Virus record (IMG/VR): IMGVR_UViG_3300038491_000010
Span: 1-33,410 of that record
DNA length: 33,410 bases
Direction: 5' to 3' (one strand)
Source: a virus
Part shown: positions 2,954 through 30,266 of the stretch, piece after piece
Numbering within the stretch: the first letter of the stretch is position 1
Layout of the letters: each line of letters opens with the position of its first letter
Position numbers and translations under genes: made by a program
Notes under the pieces: model-generated
The model's input: only the letters and a program-made list of their open reading frames with translations
What the model was told of the DNA's origin: nothing
Database searches by the model: none

Positions 2954-3540
2954 TCCACAAGGTCTCCTGTGTAATAATCCAAACCTGCGTACTCAAGCGT
3001 TTCAGGTTTTCTCATTTTGCGTAGCGCTCTTGCGTGTATTTGACGCACTCTTTCTTTGCTTCTGCCTATTACAGCGCCTATCTCATCAAGAGTATGAGCA
3101 TCACCATCTATTCCAGCTCTAAGTTTAACCACCAAAGCCTCTCGTGAAGTTAAGCCTTCTATAACTTTGTGAACAGCCTCTGCTCGTTGCTCTAATCTAA
3201 TCACTTCCGTAGGATCAACTTCTGTATGTCCGAGATACTGCAATTGCTTAGAATCTGCCTCAATTACTCGCTGGTTATTCAAAATTGGATCATTCATCTG
3301 CTCTTCTGGATACAATTCTGTTGGCATGAGGTTAAAAAAATTACATAGCATTTGAAACTTTAGACTATAATTACCATCTTTACCGAATACACCAACTTTT
3401 AAATTTAAGTATCTGCCAATATCCACTTGCGGTATATCTGACAGCCTAGATAATTCTGCTGCCGATTTAATACCTTTAGACTGCATCGCTTGCCAGAGCA
3501 GGTTGTTTTTTATTTTTATTTCTATTCGATAATCTTTCAT
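2950..3540 (-). CDS. XRE-type HTH fused to sigma-70 region 4: putative transcription regulator
   Basis: A 196-residue two-domain protein. Residues about 12-75 look like a Cro/CI-family helix-turn-helix (KSAAELSRLSDIPQVDIGRY and a following LKFQMLCNFFNL helix). Residues about 129-178 are a clear sigma region 4: LTSREALVVKLRAG, then HTLDEIGAVIGRSKERVRQI with HARALRKMRKP after it, the recognition-helix pattern of primary sigma factors. Regions 1.2, 2 and 3 are absent, so it cannot melt a promoter alone. Region 4 binds the RNA polymerase beta flap, so the protein may tether host polymerase to phage promoters through its XRE domain, or appropriate it as an anti-sigma would. It is early in the leftward unit, a sensible place for a late-gene switch. 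Domains are clear; mechanism is inferred. Confidence 0.88.
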   Translation of the reverse strand: MKDYRIEIKIKNNLLWQAMQSKGIKSAAELSRLSDIPQVDIGRYLNLKVGVFGKDGNYSLKFQMLCNFFNLMPTELYPEEQMNDPILNNQRVIEADSKQLQYLGHTEVDPTEVIRLEQRAEAVHKVIEGLTSREALVVKLRAGIDGDAHTLDEIGAVIGRSKERVRQIHARALRKMRKPETLEYAGLDYYTGDLVE

Positions 3541-3782
3541 AAGTTAGCCACTCCCTGCTGATCATGAGGCTCTAGCTCCTTGCAAACATCATCATAGATG
3601 CCTTTGTAATCAGGATGACCGTAGCGACTAGAGCCGTCAGCCATTTGATAATTACGCCAGAGCGCAACGTCAGAGCAGTAGCGAAACTCAGCAGCCTTGG
3701 CCTCCTCAAAGTCTGAGCCTCCAGCCATAAGAAATCCTACGATAACAAGCAGTCCAGCACCTATACTAATTAGATTCCGCAT
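3537..3782 (-). CDS. Small membrane-anchored or secreted protein of unknown function (81 aa)
   Basis: An 81-residue protein whose first 21 residues (MRNLISIGAGLLVIVGFLMA) form one hydrophobic helix after a single Arg, a signal anchor or signal peptide; an AKAAEF stretch at about residues 28-33 could be a signal peptidase I site. The remainder is soluble with two cysteines (RYCSDVALW and DDVCKEL) that could pair outside the cytoplasm. It overlaps the sigma-like gene by 4 bp (ATGA) and the preceding gene by 13 bp. An early small membrane protein may alter the host envelope or exclude other phages, but nothing in the sequence proves this. Confidence 0.72.
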   Translation of the reverse strand: MRNLISIGAGLLVIVGFLMAGGSDFEEAKAAEFRYCSDVALWRNYQMADGSSRYGHPDYKGIYDDVCKELEPHDQQGVANL

Positions 3783-4015
3783 CGTGCGTCCTCCTGTTCA
3801 GCCAGAGCATACATCTTGGCGCGATACGCAGGATAAGTTGCCTGCCAGACCTCTTCTTTGAGGCGATCCCAATCACGGCTAAACATACGCCCTAACTTCT
3901 GGTCAGCGACTTCATGACCATAAGACTCAACGAACTCAGGATAATTAGCTACCATGCTGCCCATGACCAGTGCGTCTAGCAGCTCGTTTGTTTGATCTAA
4001 AGTAAATTCCATCAT
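3770..4015 (-). CDS. Unrecognised small protein (81 aa)
   Basis: An 81-residue predicted helical protein starting MMEFTLDQTNELLDALVMGS with aromatic-rich helices later (RDWDRLKEEVWQATYPAYRAKMYALAEQE). I do not recognise a family. It sits one base after the preceding gene's stop and overlaps the next gene by 13 bp, so it is part of the leftward early operon. Two adjacent Met codons start it; the first (4015) is taken. The position close to the divergent promoter suggests early expression, possibly against host functions, which is inference. Confidence 0.7.
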   Translation of the reverse strand: MMEFTLDQTNELLDALVMGSMVANYPEFVESYGHEVADQKLGRMFSRDWDRLKEEVWQATYPAYRAKMYALAEQEDARCGI

Positions 4016-4016
4016 G

Positions 4017-4340
4017 TTACTTCTCCAACTGATAATGTTTGCGAACGGCTGTTCTTAGGTAAGCTGCGGCTGTGTCCATCAAGGTTTTCTGCAAGACTTT
4101 CTGCGCCTTGCCTACTTCTTCGAGGTTGCCATAGGCAAGAGAGACAATCATGCGAGCAGCGTCAGAGCCGTCCATGAACGTGAAAAGCGCAGCATCGAGG
4201 TTGTCAGCAGCGTCACAGGCTAGGAAAAGATGATCAAGGATGTCATCACGGTCGGATTCAGGCAAAGAGTCCATATCGTAGTAAGGATCTAGGCCAAGCT
4301 CTTCTACTTTATCAACGATCTGGTTGTAGCTAAAAGACAT
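4017..4340 (-). CDS. First gene of the leftward unit, unrecognised acidic protein (107 aa)
   Basis: A 107-residue acidic helical protein (DPYYDMDSLPESDRDDILDH near the start, a basic tail ending RKHYQLEK). I do not recognise a family. The start at 4340 is supported by a good Shine-Dalgarno sequence, GGAG followed by AAAACTT and ATG. A sigma-70-like promoter lies about 50 bp upstream (4388-4415). As the promoter-proximal gene of a unit that, on the circle, contains all late genes, it should be made first after infection. Function unknown. Confidence 0.75.
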   Translation of the reverse strand: MSFSYNQIVDKVEELGLDPYYDMDSLPESDRDDILDHLFLACDAADNLDAALFTFMDGSDAARMIVSLAYGNLEEVGKAQKVLQKTLMDTAAAYLRTAVRKHYQLEK

Positions 4341-4415: not shown

Positions 4416-4746
4416 CTTATTTCACACTTATTTGGAGAAAAAAGTCATTTAGATGGTTTGGGACACCCTAGTATCTTACAGGAGCATGATCCACAGGTTT
4501 CTATTGCCAGAACTCTTCATCATCCGTGATTACTGAGTCAAGTCACCATCGTGTCCGCTAAACTGGTTTGTCGCCATCACTCTGCTGCTCAGGCGCGATC
4601 CCATCAATCTCGGAAACCTTGTGCTATCTGGGTGTTTCAGGCTACCCATAGGCCATATCGCTGAGTTACGGTCAGGATTTATCACACCGGATTGCCAGTG
4701 TACTCCACTTTGCTAGTGAGATACAATACCTATATGTGCAGGCAGT

Positions 4747-27216: not shown

Positions 27217-28020
27217 TCATTCAAAAGTTGCTCCTTTAGGGCCACCAGCCTTGGGACTTACCCCAGCGCCTCTTGGCGTGTCTAGTGGATCAGGAGCGGC
27301 ATTAACATTAGGTTTAAGTTTTCTAGCCTTTGGCATAATGGTCTGATCCAAATACAGCAACGCCTGATTAGCAGGCATATTCGCCAGCTTATCTAACTCT
27401 AAGAGATTCTGACCTAAGTACAGAGTTCCAAGACTTCCATCATCTAAATCAATCAAATGACTAGACAGCATTGGGTTTATCCCAAACTGGCCGATCTTGT
27501 TGGCTGCGCTTTGCAGATCCTCAGTCTTTACACCGAGTTTCTTAGAGCGTTCTGCGTAGGTTGCGATCTTCGCATTCTGCTCACTAACTGCCGCTGCTTG
27601 CTGTTGACGCTGTAACTCTAGCTGCTGGCCTTGCATGGCCTGCTGCCTAGCCTCAAACTCTGCTCGCTTGGCAATCGCCTGATCGCGCTGTCGGAGCTGC
27701 TCCTGTATCTCTCTATCCGAGAGACTATAGAAGTCAGGCACGTTCGGCACTTCTGGCGGCTGTTCTTTCGGAAGCCTAGCTTCAAGATCTGCAAGACGCT
27801 TGCGATAGTCCTCGGCCTGACGCTCTGCTTCTCGCGCCTTCCAAGTCTTCTCGCTTATAGCCTTATCAAAGACCTTCTGCTGTTCTTCGTTAAAAACAGG
27901 TCTAGTGGATTGTTCTTGGTCTTCACCAGTATCCGTTGATGAGTCGGAATCAGTTTCCTGATCTACAGTTTCTACGTCTTCAAGCTCATAAGCCTCATCG
28001 ACCATATCTTCTGGTTGCAT
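27217..28020 (-). CDS. Scaffolding protein
   Basis: A 267-residue internal assembly scaffold, the usual gene before coat. The N-terminus is very acidic (MQPEDMVDEAYELEDVETVD, more Asp/Glu to about 45). Residues 55-170 are charged helices likely to form coiled coil (QQKVFDKAISEKTWKAREAE, RDQAIAKRAEFEARQQAMQG). A basic C-terminal region (KARKLKPNVNAAPDPLDTPR to KGATFE) is the kind that contacts coat protein in P22. Length is a little below the P22 scaffold (about 300). No protease motif is evident. A 203-bp regulatory gap precedes it. Confidence 0.87.
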   Translation of the reverse strand: MQPEDMVDEAYELEDVETVDQETDSDSSTDTGEDQEQSTRPVFNEEQQKVFDKAISEKTWKAREAERQAEDYRKRLADLEARLPKEQPPEVPNVPDFYSLSDREIQEQLRQRDQAIAKRAEFEARQQAMQGQQLELQRQQQAAAVSEQNAKIATYAERSKKLGVKTEDLQSAANKIGQFGINPMLSSHLIDLDDGSLGTLYLGQNLLELDKLANMPANQALLYLDQTIMPKARKLKPNVNAAPDPLDTPRGAGVSPKAGGPKGATFE

Positions 28021-28036
28021 CTTATACCTACTGTAA

Positions 28037-28087
28037 TGCCGTCAAATAAACGGTGACGTTCCGTGCCGTCAAGAAAGTGTGACGTTC
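28037..28087 (-). repeat. Two tandem operator-like repeats in the scaffold leader
   Basis: Two copies of TGCCGTCAA, 7-8 variable bases, TGACGTTC (28037-28061 and 28064-28087; plus-strand reading) in direct order with a 27-bp period. Within each copy CGTCA and TGACG are an inverted repeat with a short loop. They lie between a putative promoter and the scaffold start. They may be protein-binding sites or small leader hairpins. Confidence 0.6.
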
Positions 28088-28091
28088 ACTA

Positions 28092-28127
28092 GTGGTCAAA
28101 TATACCACAATTTGGTTAAAAGCAATA
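28092..28127 (-). promoter_or_regulatory. Putative extended -10 promoter and overlapping palindrome before scaffold
   Basis: On the minus strand an extended -10, TGGTATATT (hexamer TATATT at the complement of 28099-28104), lies 17 bp after TATTGC (28122-28127), a poor -35. The palindrome GTGGT/ACCAC with a 7-base middle (28092-28108) covers the -10, as an operator would. It could drive an extra scaffold and coat transcript. The -35 is weak, so it might need an activator such as the XRE-sigma4 protein. Confidence 0.38.
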
Positions 28128-28141
28128 CTTTTCTTAAAATA

Positions 28142-28212
28142 TGGCGGAAGCGGCTACCTAGCAAGGCTCCGATAGATTATCGCCTGTGGAATTGAACCAC
28201 TATTACGCTTCC
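28142..28212 (-). other. tRNA-sized structured element closed by a 7-bp stem, ending GCCA
   Basis: Reading the minus strand from 28212, GGAAGCG pairs perfectly with CGCTTCC (28152-28146), followed by G and CCA (to 28142), 71 bases in all. Within it are a hairpin GTGG, loop TTCAATT, CCAC (28200-28186) and a hairpin CGATA, ATC, TATCG (28182-28170) enclosed by GGC/GCC. The termini look like a tRNA-Ser acceptor. Internal arms do not fit a standard cloverleaf in order, so it is called a structured element, not a tRNA. It sits just after the stop of the 680-residue gene. Confidence 0.5.
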
Positions 28213-28223
28213 ATAAACTTTTG

Positions 28224-30266
28224 TTAAATGTCTTCTTCTCGTAGCGCCGAAACCGCTCCAACCGCTCCAGCGCCAGTCGCTAATGGAACAATGTAAGACT
28301 TGCTTACATCATAAGGATCAAATATTGAAGCGACCTTGCCAAGTTTGGGATGGTCAACAAAATAGCCAGTGTAATTACTATCTGCTATGCGCTTCTCGGA
28401 GCCAGTTGGATCGTTTGGAACCCATAATTTATCAGGGTCTTTCCTAGCGTCATAAAGCAATTCAGGCTCAATTAGAACCTCATTTTGAATGCTGCCTATT
28501 CCGACCTCTCGTCTATACGGATTCTCCGATGCAGGGATACCATAATACGACCTTTTGACGAAATCTGGGCTTCCCGCTCTATTGCGCTCTGCGCTTCTTC
28601 TGGACAATCCTCCTCCATACATTTCTGGATCGACTCGCTCAATGGGTCGGTTGGAACGGTGGATGATTCTGAGTTTTCCATCATCCGTGACTGCTCCTTC
28701 AAGTCCTGTCTCACCACGGCGCAAAGCATCAAAAAATCTTTCTCGCTTATCGTCATTGATTATTAAGCCTGATTCAGATGCGTATCTTGGCATTAAGCCT
28801 GTTTTCTGATCTGCGAATATGGTGTCTTCAACACTAGCGGTGCGGTTTGCTTCAGCATTAGGCCCATAGTTTAAAAAAGAATTTTGTCCTCTGGTCTCTG
28901 ATGCTAATGCTCGCCTTGCTAATGGAGAATACATTCCAGCATGAGATTGGTAGGCGTTTTCTTCGCCCATTGCCCTGAATCCTACACCACCTCTACCATG
29001 TCCCATTGCGTCATGAACAAATCTAAAAATGTCATTATTTAGAGCAGGTTGACCGCCTATATTATAACCTGACTCACCCAATAAAGGATTGTCTTTAGGA
29101 TCAAAATTAACATCGCTTCCAAACCCAGAGCGAGTAGGAAATATTCCTAAGCGTCTATTTTGCTCAAGATCAATCAACGCTTCGTATGGGCTATTTTTAT
29201 AAGGATCAACATCATTGATAAAATAAGGCTCAATTCCTCTATTAATTAAAGACTCATATTGTCCTAAAGTTTCTTCGATCATTGCATCATAAGAGCGTCT
29301 CACTTCAGGGTTTTGAGGATCATGCCTCATCAAGTCATATTCTCTCGCTATCTGTGTAGCTCTTGGCTCATCCACAGAGGCATAACGAACAATTGGCTGA
29401 GAAGGAATGCCAGAGCGTTGCGAATAGTCTTGAGCGGCAGCAGCTACTTCAGGGTTAGGCCCAACACGAACAGGGCCGCGCTCTGGGATTCTAGGTAGAG
29501 ATGGCGCACCTGCTAATGGAGTATCTCCGATAGTTAATGTTGGTAGCTCGTTAAGTTTATCTTGATTCCATATTTCATAATGGGTAGCACCATCTTGATC
29601 TGGGTAATATGCGCCGTCATAACCCATATCTATAAGCTGATCTTTAAGATATTTATCAGTCTCGTCATAACTAGCTAGTTTTAGATTAGACTCATCTAGC
29701 TGACGCTGAATCACACCACCCTTCCCTGCTGCGGCGACTTCTCCTATATCTGGATTTGTGGTAAACCAAGTTGATCCATCTGCTGACTTATCCAAATCAA
29801 AACCGAATTGATCTATTGCTTTTGCCGAATCAGAACTTGTTCCGTGGTATATGTTACGCAAATTACTTCTGGCTTTTTTTGCAATTTTAGAGCTTACATC
29901 GCCAACAACAGGAACAACGCTCATCAAATTGATACCAGTGCCTACCATATCGCCTTGGTTATAAGACCTTGCAGCGTCCTCTAAACCTAATGCGTCTCCA
30001 ACTATAGGAGCAAAATCTATAGCAGAATCAACACCAGAAGCAGCGTTGAGAAGTCCTCGGCGATAACCGCCTTCAATTCCTGTAGCGTCTATTGCGTCAC
30101 GCATAATGTTAGATAAGGCTGAACGGAAAGAAGGTCGCGCAGTCTCCATTGTTTGCACTCTAGGCGCAACTTGCGTTCTGCCCTGTAATGAGTACCTATT
30201 AGACGCAAACTCTTTTACTGCTTCATTAAGAGCCGATGATCCTGCGCTTGGTCTGCGTTCAGCCAT
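28224..30266 (-). CDS. Multidomain toxin-like protein with ADP-ribosyltransferase-like domain, between portal and scaffold
   Basis: A 680-residue protein with no P22 counterpart. Residues 75-133 (DFAPIVGDALGLEDAARSYN to LMSVVPVVGDVSSKIAKKAR) resemble the hydrophobic pretoxin segment of polymorphic toxins. Residues 139-240 fit an ADP-ribosyltransferase-like fold: His141 in IYHGTSSD, aromatic Trp167-Phe168 and Glu231 in HYEIWN. Residues about 290-495 are a second conserved module with His418, His423 (FVHDAMGH), Glu435-Glu436, His442 and RGQNSFLNYG (459-468), seen in phage polyvalent proteins. Residues 531-655 (IIHRSNRPIERVDPEMYGGG, YTGYFVDHPKLGKVASIF) form a third module. A hydrophobic C-terminal helix ends it. 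Overlaps the portal gene by 8 bp. Likely packaged and ejected as effector; domains inferred by eye. Confidence 0.72.
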   Translation of the reverse strand: MAERRPSAGSSALNEAVKEFASNRYSLQGRTQVAPRVQTMETARPSFRSALSNIMRDAIDATGIEGGYRRGLLNAASGVDSAIDFAPIVGDALGLEDAARSYNQGDMVGTGINLMSVVPVVGDVSSKIAKKARSNLRNIYHGTSSDSAKAIDQFGFDLDKSADGSTWFTTNPDIGEVAAAGKGGVIQRQLDESNLKLASYDETDKYLKDQLIDMGYDGAYYPDQDGATHYEIWNQDKLNELPTLTIGDTPLAGAPSLPRIPERGPVRVGPNPEVAAAAQDYSQRSGIPSQPIVRYASVDEPRATQIAREYDLMRHDPQNPEVRRSYDAMIEETLGQYESLINRGIEPYFINDVDPYKNSPYEALIDLEQNRRLGIFPTRSGFGSDVNFDPKDNPLLGESGYNIGGQPALNNDIFRFVHDAMGHGRGGVGFRAMGEENAYQSHAGMYSPLARRALASETRGQNSFLNYGPNAEANRTASVEDTIFADQKTGLMPRYASESGLIINDDKRERFFDALRRGETGLEGAVTDDGKLRIIHRSNRPIERVDPEMYGGGLSRRSAERNRAGSPDFVKRSYYGIPASENPYRREVGIGSIQNEVLIEPELLYDARKDPDKLWVPNDPTGSEKRIADSNYTGYFVDHPKLGKVASIFDPYDVSKSYIVPLATGAGAVGAVSALREEDI

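Follow-up and report, generated by a model that had tools for sequence, protein, structure and literature searches.

What occupies the gap between an accessory gene and the head scaffolding gene of a marine P22-like phage, where a 7-bp stem followed by G and an encoded CCA closes 71 nt much as an acceptor stem would close a tRNA? The DNA analysed here (the window) is a virus contig of 33,410 bases that codes for a P22-like portal, a head scaffolding protein and a P22 coat protein (PHROGs, Pfam), and the element falls, in agreement with the original prediction, in intergenic DNA between the stop of a 680-aa ORF (28224-30266, minus) and the scaffold gene (27217-28020, minus). The stem, its coordinates, the G and the CCA are all present as originally described; that description stated no strand and holds on the minus strand only, where the element reads 5'-3' GGAAGCG-TAATA-GTGG-TTCAATT-CCAC-AGGC-GATAATCTATCGGA-GCCT-T-GCT-AGGT-AGC-CGCTTCC-GCCA (Table 1). 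A plus-strand reading was rejected because the T-loop and the CCA are then lost, and the minus strand fits both the T-loop and the direction of the late genes around the element (portal, accessory, scaffold and coat), which are on that strand too. Both strands fold about equally well, and evidence for strand from the paired positions is weak (4 G-U against 3 A-C).

Fold and covariation

Relatives were gathered by searches with the capsid protein and with the upstream 680-aa protein, and IMG/VR was scanned with IUPAC patterns of falling stringency. The copies fall into three types: A (the window and most others), B (L022/L172, L029/L030/L033/L034 and their copies) and C (L085/L176). Types A and B differ at 26% of folded-core positions, and all three types share one common fold: the closing stem P1, a T-loop hairpin (P2), a hairpin with a loop of 14-15 nt (P3) and a short fourth hairpin (P4).

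Table 1. Parts of the element and of its immediate flanks, in window coordinates
Feature	Position	Strand	Remarks
Whole element, P1 to CCA	28142..28212	minus	71 nt; sequence read directly
Folded core	28146-28212	minus	67 nt
P1 5' strand GGAAGCG	28206..28212	minus	double-sided changes in 3/7 pairs across types
P1 3' strand CGCTTCC	28146..28152	minus	pairs with GGAAGCG
Joining segment TAATA, between P1 and P2	28201..28205	minus	invariant in types A, B and C
P2 hairpin GTGG-TTCAATT-CCAC, 7-nt T-loop-like loop	28186..28200	minus	
P3 hairpin AGGC-(14 nt)-GCCT	28164..28185	minus	double-sided changes in 2/4 pairs; also predicted by RNAalifold from the same alignment
P4 short hairpin GCT-AGGT-AGC	28153..28162	minus	U-A to A-U in type C; 2 bp in type B
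GCCA right behind P1	28142..28145	minus	TCCA in some type A, GCCA in B, ACCT in C
12-nt direct repeat, copy 1, promoter side of element	28127..28138		
12-nt direct repeat, copy 2 (11/12)	28217..28228		overlaps stop codon of upstream gene
Extended -10 promoter-like TTGCTT-N15-TATATT, TGG before it, ahead of scaffold gene	28099..28125	minus	by eye

There is little doubt that 28212-28146 (minus) is a real structured element with these four helices. When 20 copies (12 of them distinct in sequence) were aligned with a covariance model, the tested structure (P1 of 7 bp, P2 and P3 of 4 bp each, P4 of 2-3 bp) is paired in 98.6% of cells across the distinct sequences, and 7/18 pairs show double-sided changes, against a shuffled mean of 2.0 and with 0/500 shuffles reaching 7, although the independent events behind this covariation are few, in essence three types. 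When the 3' partner was slid, pairing dropped to 41-52% and only 0-1 pairs were doubly changed. The model alignment was itself fitted to the structure; a plain MAFFT alignment gives 92.4% pairing and 6 double-changed pairs, and RNAalifold, run on the model alignment, returns the same helices; it predicts 17 of the 18 pairs, and 6 of these are doubly changed. The compensating changes looked for in the 7-bp stem are thus present among relatives, and the notion that a tRNA-like stem closes a non-standard interior has been borne out, with covariation behind it. P2 contributes a compensatory U-A to A-U change in type B, and polymorphisms within type A either preserve pairing or are unpaired (an A to G in P3 that yields G-U, a single base in a loop and the base just ahead of CCA). 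The P2 loop is UUCAANU in types A and C and UGCAANU in type B. The P3 loop contains a near-invariant AATCTATC, most of whose bases are invariant across types.

The stability of the single sequence relative to shuffles is mild (RNA z -1.9; as single-stranded DNA, z -2.4 and -2.5 on the two strands), and it is because relatives keep the stems through compensatory changes that the element is nevertheless beyond chance. An inner CGATA/TATCG hairpin in the single-sequence fold was rejected, as a C-to-A change breaks it in several type A members and it is absent in type B; AGGC/GCCT replaces it because this pairing covaries. A 4-bp loop-loop contact between AUCU in the P3 loop (28174-28177) and AGGU/AGAU/GGAU in the P4 region is feasible in all types, yet this contact is put forward tentatively, as a proposal only, since the changes are on one side.

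Distribution and neighbourhood

Beyond the window, the element was found on 23 further IMG/VR contigs, the same small set at every pattern stringency; one of the scans gave 24 hit stretches, some of which are the same contig under another locus id. A covariance model (R1) matches the window at 28134-28223 (minus) with 113.8 bits. Looser patterns added two chance matches only (L183 and L184), within unrelated sequence, and all the other matches lie at the portal-scaffold gap of P22-like marine phages wherever the contigs reach far enough. Outside this set, types A and B were not found in about 50,700 annotated phage records (type C at chance level only), a pattern scan of species-genome contigs did not find the element, nor was it found in plasmids, and a model search of 390 bacterial genomes, from the order of a MAG with a related capsid gene, gave no match, an empty answer that is weak evidence. 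No description of the element was found in the literature on phage structured RNAs and P22-like morons. This is an RNA family without an Rfam match, so far confined to one group of marine P22-like phages, and its interest lies in being a small structured family that is backed by compensatory changes and has no credible match among those phage records.

Within the group the element comes and goes. It is present in 14/35 close relatives, i.e. absent from more than half, and its state switches 8 times on a tree of 35 coat (capsid) genes. L043 and L044 have identical coat genes, with the element in L044 only; such polymorphism between otherwise near-identical phages amounts to a natural experiment. 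Type A copies are 97-100% identical, whereas the scaffold genes of the same pairs share 61-96% and the coat genes 85-94%, which suggests either strong constraint or recent spread by exchange. Nor is the element tied to scaffold type (e.g. L026). It is an optional module at the portal-scaffold gene-swap site of P22-like marine phages.

The gene upstream is itself variable: its product, about 429-707 aa long, is a mosaic with domains exchanged between phages. The copies at this hotspot (window 28224-30266 minus; L003, L008, L010, L018, L034 and L175) share N-terminal modules (MAERRPSAGSSALN...) and have swapped C-terminal domains; some carry YHGTSSD and GVYVTP motifs that are, by eye, reminiscent of ADP-ribosyltransferases, and phrog_3170 is the sole match of the window copy. 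An RNA partner of the upstream protein, one of the roles originally proposed, was rejected, since upstream proteins that are unrelated precede one and the same element, and near-identical ones occur with and without it (L028/L037 versus L043/L002). A type III toxin-antitoxin RNA was likewise rejected because the RNA is not linked to one protein family.

In most carriers the element begins a few bases past the upstream stop codon, whatever the gene. It is not always directly at the 3' end of that gene, since in L022 and L175 a small reverse ORF intervenes. This ORF of 60-62 aa (...DWYEA..S.WQNF...; L022 2222-2410, minus; L175 1505-1687, plus) lies behind related upstream genes in otherwise different phages, and its predicted product could be an immunity or antitoxin partner. 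In type C, an extra stretch separates the element of L085 from the scaffold gene, and a perfect, parS-like palindrome, TGTTCCACATGGAACA, lies directly before it (L085 2380-2410). Another palindrome, CTATATCAAAATATTTTGATATAG, is found past the stop codon of the accessory gene in L083 (about 4420-4450), with the folded element after it, and in L090 (about 4095-4125), with none and with one base near its end changed.

Two further loci touch on the hotspot itself. In L185 (Pseudoalteromonas phage H6/1, an isolated phage) this portal-scaffold gap is occupied by four small genes in reverse orientation (3323-4012), and because the gap is also filled there the hotspot is wider than the present phage group. 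In L163 (6614-8660), accessory and head genes are split into several frames, which may reflect sequencing error or decay.

Possible roles at the portal-scaffold boundary

From the lack of an evident promoter of its own and from its start a few bases past a stop codon in most carriers, we infer that the element works as RNA, as part of a late transcript over the portal and the swappable gene. The one promoter match (28227-28199) is weak and at chance level for the region, and none was convincing; no convincing terminator was found either. An intrinsic terminator, i.e. a G+C-rich hairpin with a U run, was rejected: a terminator scan does not list the element, and its tail is GCCAUAUUUUAAG in type A and GCCAAAAAUUGC in type B. 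Directly behind the element in types A and B lies an extended -10 promoter-like sequence (TGGTATATT; TGCTATAAT in relatives), which is kept in element-free relatives too and which a consensus promoter scan omits because it demands a spacing of 16-18.

Our first choice, held tentatively and at somewhat less than even chances, is that the element acts in cis as an mRNA-boundary or processing element. Read-through of the portal-accessory transcript would make the element, which would end that message; its compact fold with the 7-bp acceptor-like stem would be the 3' terminus of the message of the accessory gene and would shield that message or direct its cleavage, and the scaffold-coat message would begin anew at the promoter-like sequence directly downstream. 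The argument for such a role is precisely that the element would end one message with a promoter-like sequence right after it. The constant site, the proximity to the stop codon and the following promoter-like sequence (types A and B) count for this reading; type C, without CCA, counts against it, and the function could not be essential, since more than half of the close relatives do without the element. In types A and B, the CCA behind an acceptor-like stem may point to RNase P-type or 3'-end processing, and the processing signal for RNase P or Z that was originally suggested is still a candidate. If it acts in cis, the element would mark in a new way where an accessory gene ends and the head operon begins.

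A close second, possible but by no means probable, is an RNA moron: an accessory small RNA that would be released from the late transcript by processing and would work in trans on targets in the host or the phage. It might, for instance, be a decoy for a defence protein of the host that binds or cuts RNA. This reading is nearly as likely as the cis role because the element is optional and portable, and its sequence is better conserved than those around it: it is patchy and often gained or lost, type A is almost unchanged while scaffold genes differ by up to 39%, and it is independent of upstream gene and scaffold type, behaving in all this like the accessory genes of the same hotspot. Against it, there is no convincing promoter or terminator dedicated to the element, it has no known product and it is seen at one site only. 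A bolder form, which we consider improbable, would make it a new class of accessory phage RNA gene, tRNA-sized and T-loop-bearing, swapped like a moron in a P22-like late operon and acting in trans, e.g. as a decoy for a host enzyme of tRNA handling or a tRNA-cutting defence enzyme. If the element does act in trans, phage gene-swap sites would carry RNA cargo besides protein cargo.

It is unlikely that the nascent RNA alters RNA polymerase, either as an antiterminator similar to HK022 put or as an attenuator between accessory and head genes. Within the late operon the element does precede the head genes, with a terminator-like hairpin downstream in the scaffold leader (28071-28054), and there is a precedent in HK022 putRNA, a phage cis RNA that acts on polymerase (PMC9378689). 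However, the scaffold gene has a promoter-like sequence of its own after the element, and element-free relatives retain the same leader. Put RNA is likewise a short cis RNA fold in a phage transcript; the element differs in its four helices and lack of an Rfam match. The scaffold leader (window 28021-28104 minus, and relatives) also contains repeated short inverted repeats (CGTCA...TGACG; relatives have CTCCA...TGGAG), as well as GGCATTTACC or a near variant; it could be an autoregulation site of the scaffold protein.

We are equally doubtful of a role at the DNA level, in which the element would be a small insertion or recombination module with its inverted repeats as DNA hairpins. An imperfect 12-nt direct repeat flanks type A copies, the single-stranded DNA fold is more stable than shuffles, and in empty alleles the promoter-like sequence follows the stop codon without a break (empty L010 GCATAAAAG/TATTGC versus L004 GCATAAAAG-element-AAAAG-TATTGC). 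Yet no search revealed another site, types B and C have no such repeat by eye, its two ends do not form inverted repeats, there is no linked recombinase and a DNA hairpin would not need invariant loops. An attC-like recombination site was rejected by eye on the misfit of its consensus ends.

Likeness to tRNAs and other structured RNAs

The resemblance to tRNA (RF00005) and to viral tRNA-like structures is one of outline: about 70 nt, four helices, one T-loop-like 7-nt arm and an acceptor-type end of 7 bp + N + CCA in types A and B. The end of type C has 6 bp and ACCT, without the seventh pair and the CCA, which argues against tRNA mimicry as the conserved property. In contrast to tRNA, the supported layout does not have D, anticodon and T arms in order but P1, a T-loop hairpin, a wide-loop hairpin and a short hairpin; the T-loop is in the first arm, a 14-15-nt loop in the second, the third arm is very short and there is no anticodon. 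No T-loop of the form UUCRANU is found in the 3' arm, and in type B the first-arm loop has G at the U55 position, which, together with the placement of the loop, is evidence against close mimicry. A tRNA mimic would therefore be meant in a loose sense only, that of a cloverleaf-like four-helix outline with a T-loop.

The checks with ARAGORN and Rfam recognise neither a tRNA nor any other family: ARAGORN found no tRNA in the window, Rfam found nothing in the window (a permissive scan of the small region gave one chance-level match outside the element) and Rfam 15 gave no family match above chance for types A, B or C. When the tRNA model and the cobalamin riboswitch model (RF00174) were each searched directly, four records gave no match, and both models ring in control genomes. 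A decayed or cryptic tRNA gene is very improbable despite the 7-bp closing stem, the encoded CCA of types A and B and, in types A and C, a UUCAANU T-loop with a closing G-C pair, given the lack of any ARAGORN or tRNA-model match, a T-loop in the wrong arm and no anticodon arm, and three diverged types that keep the same non-tRNA interior; compensatory selection on the stems and near-identical loops speak against the decay that had been suggested.

By eye only, the element resembles the core of the cobalamin riboswitch in having a junction that includes a T-loop arm and perhaps a contact between loops, and type B shares GGUGCAAAUCC (the T-loop hairpin) and GAGCCAGAGA with the RF00174 consensus. 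Unlike that riboswitch, the element precedes a promoter-like sequence and is not in the 5' UTR of a metabolic gene, and it was rejected as one because RF00174 matched 0/4 records at E up to 10. The element belongs with structured phage RNAs, a known kind, and its function is a predicted one. The manA and wcaG motifs (PMC2864571) are comparable in being structured RNAs from marine metagenomes and phages; they differ from this element, which has no Rfam match, in occurring in cyanophages near metabolic genes.
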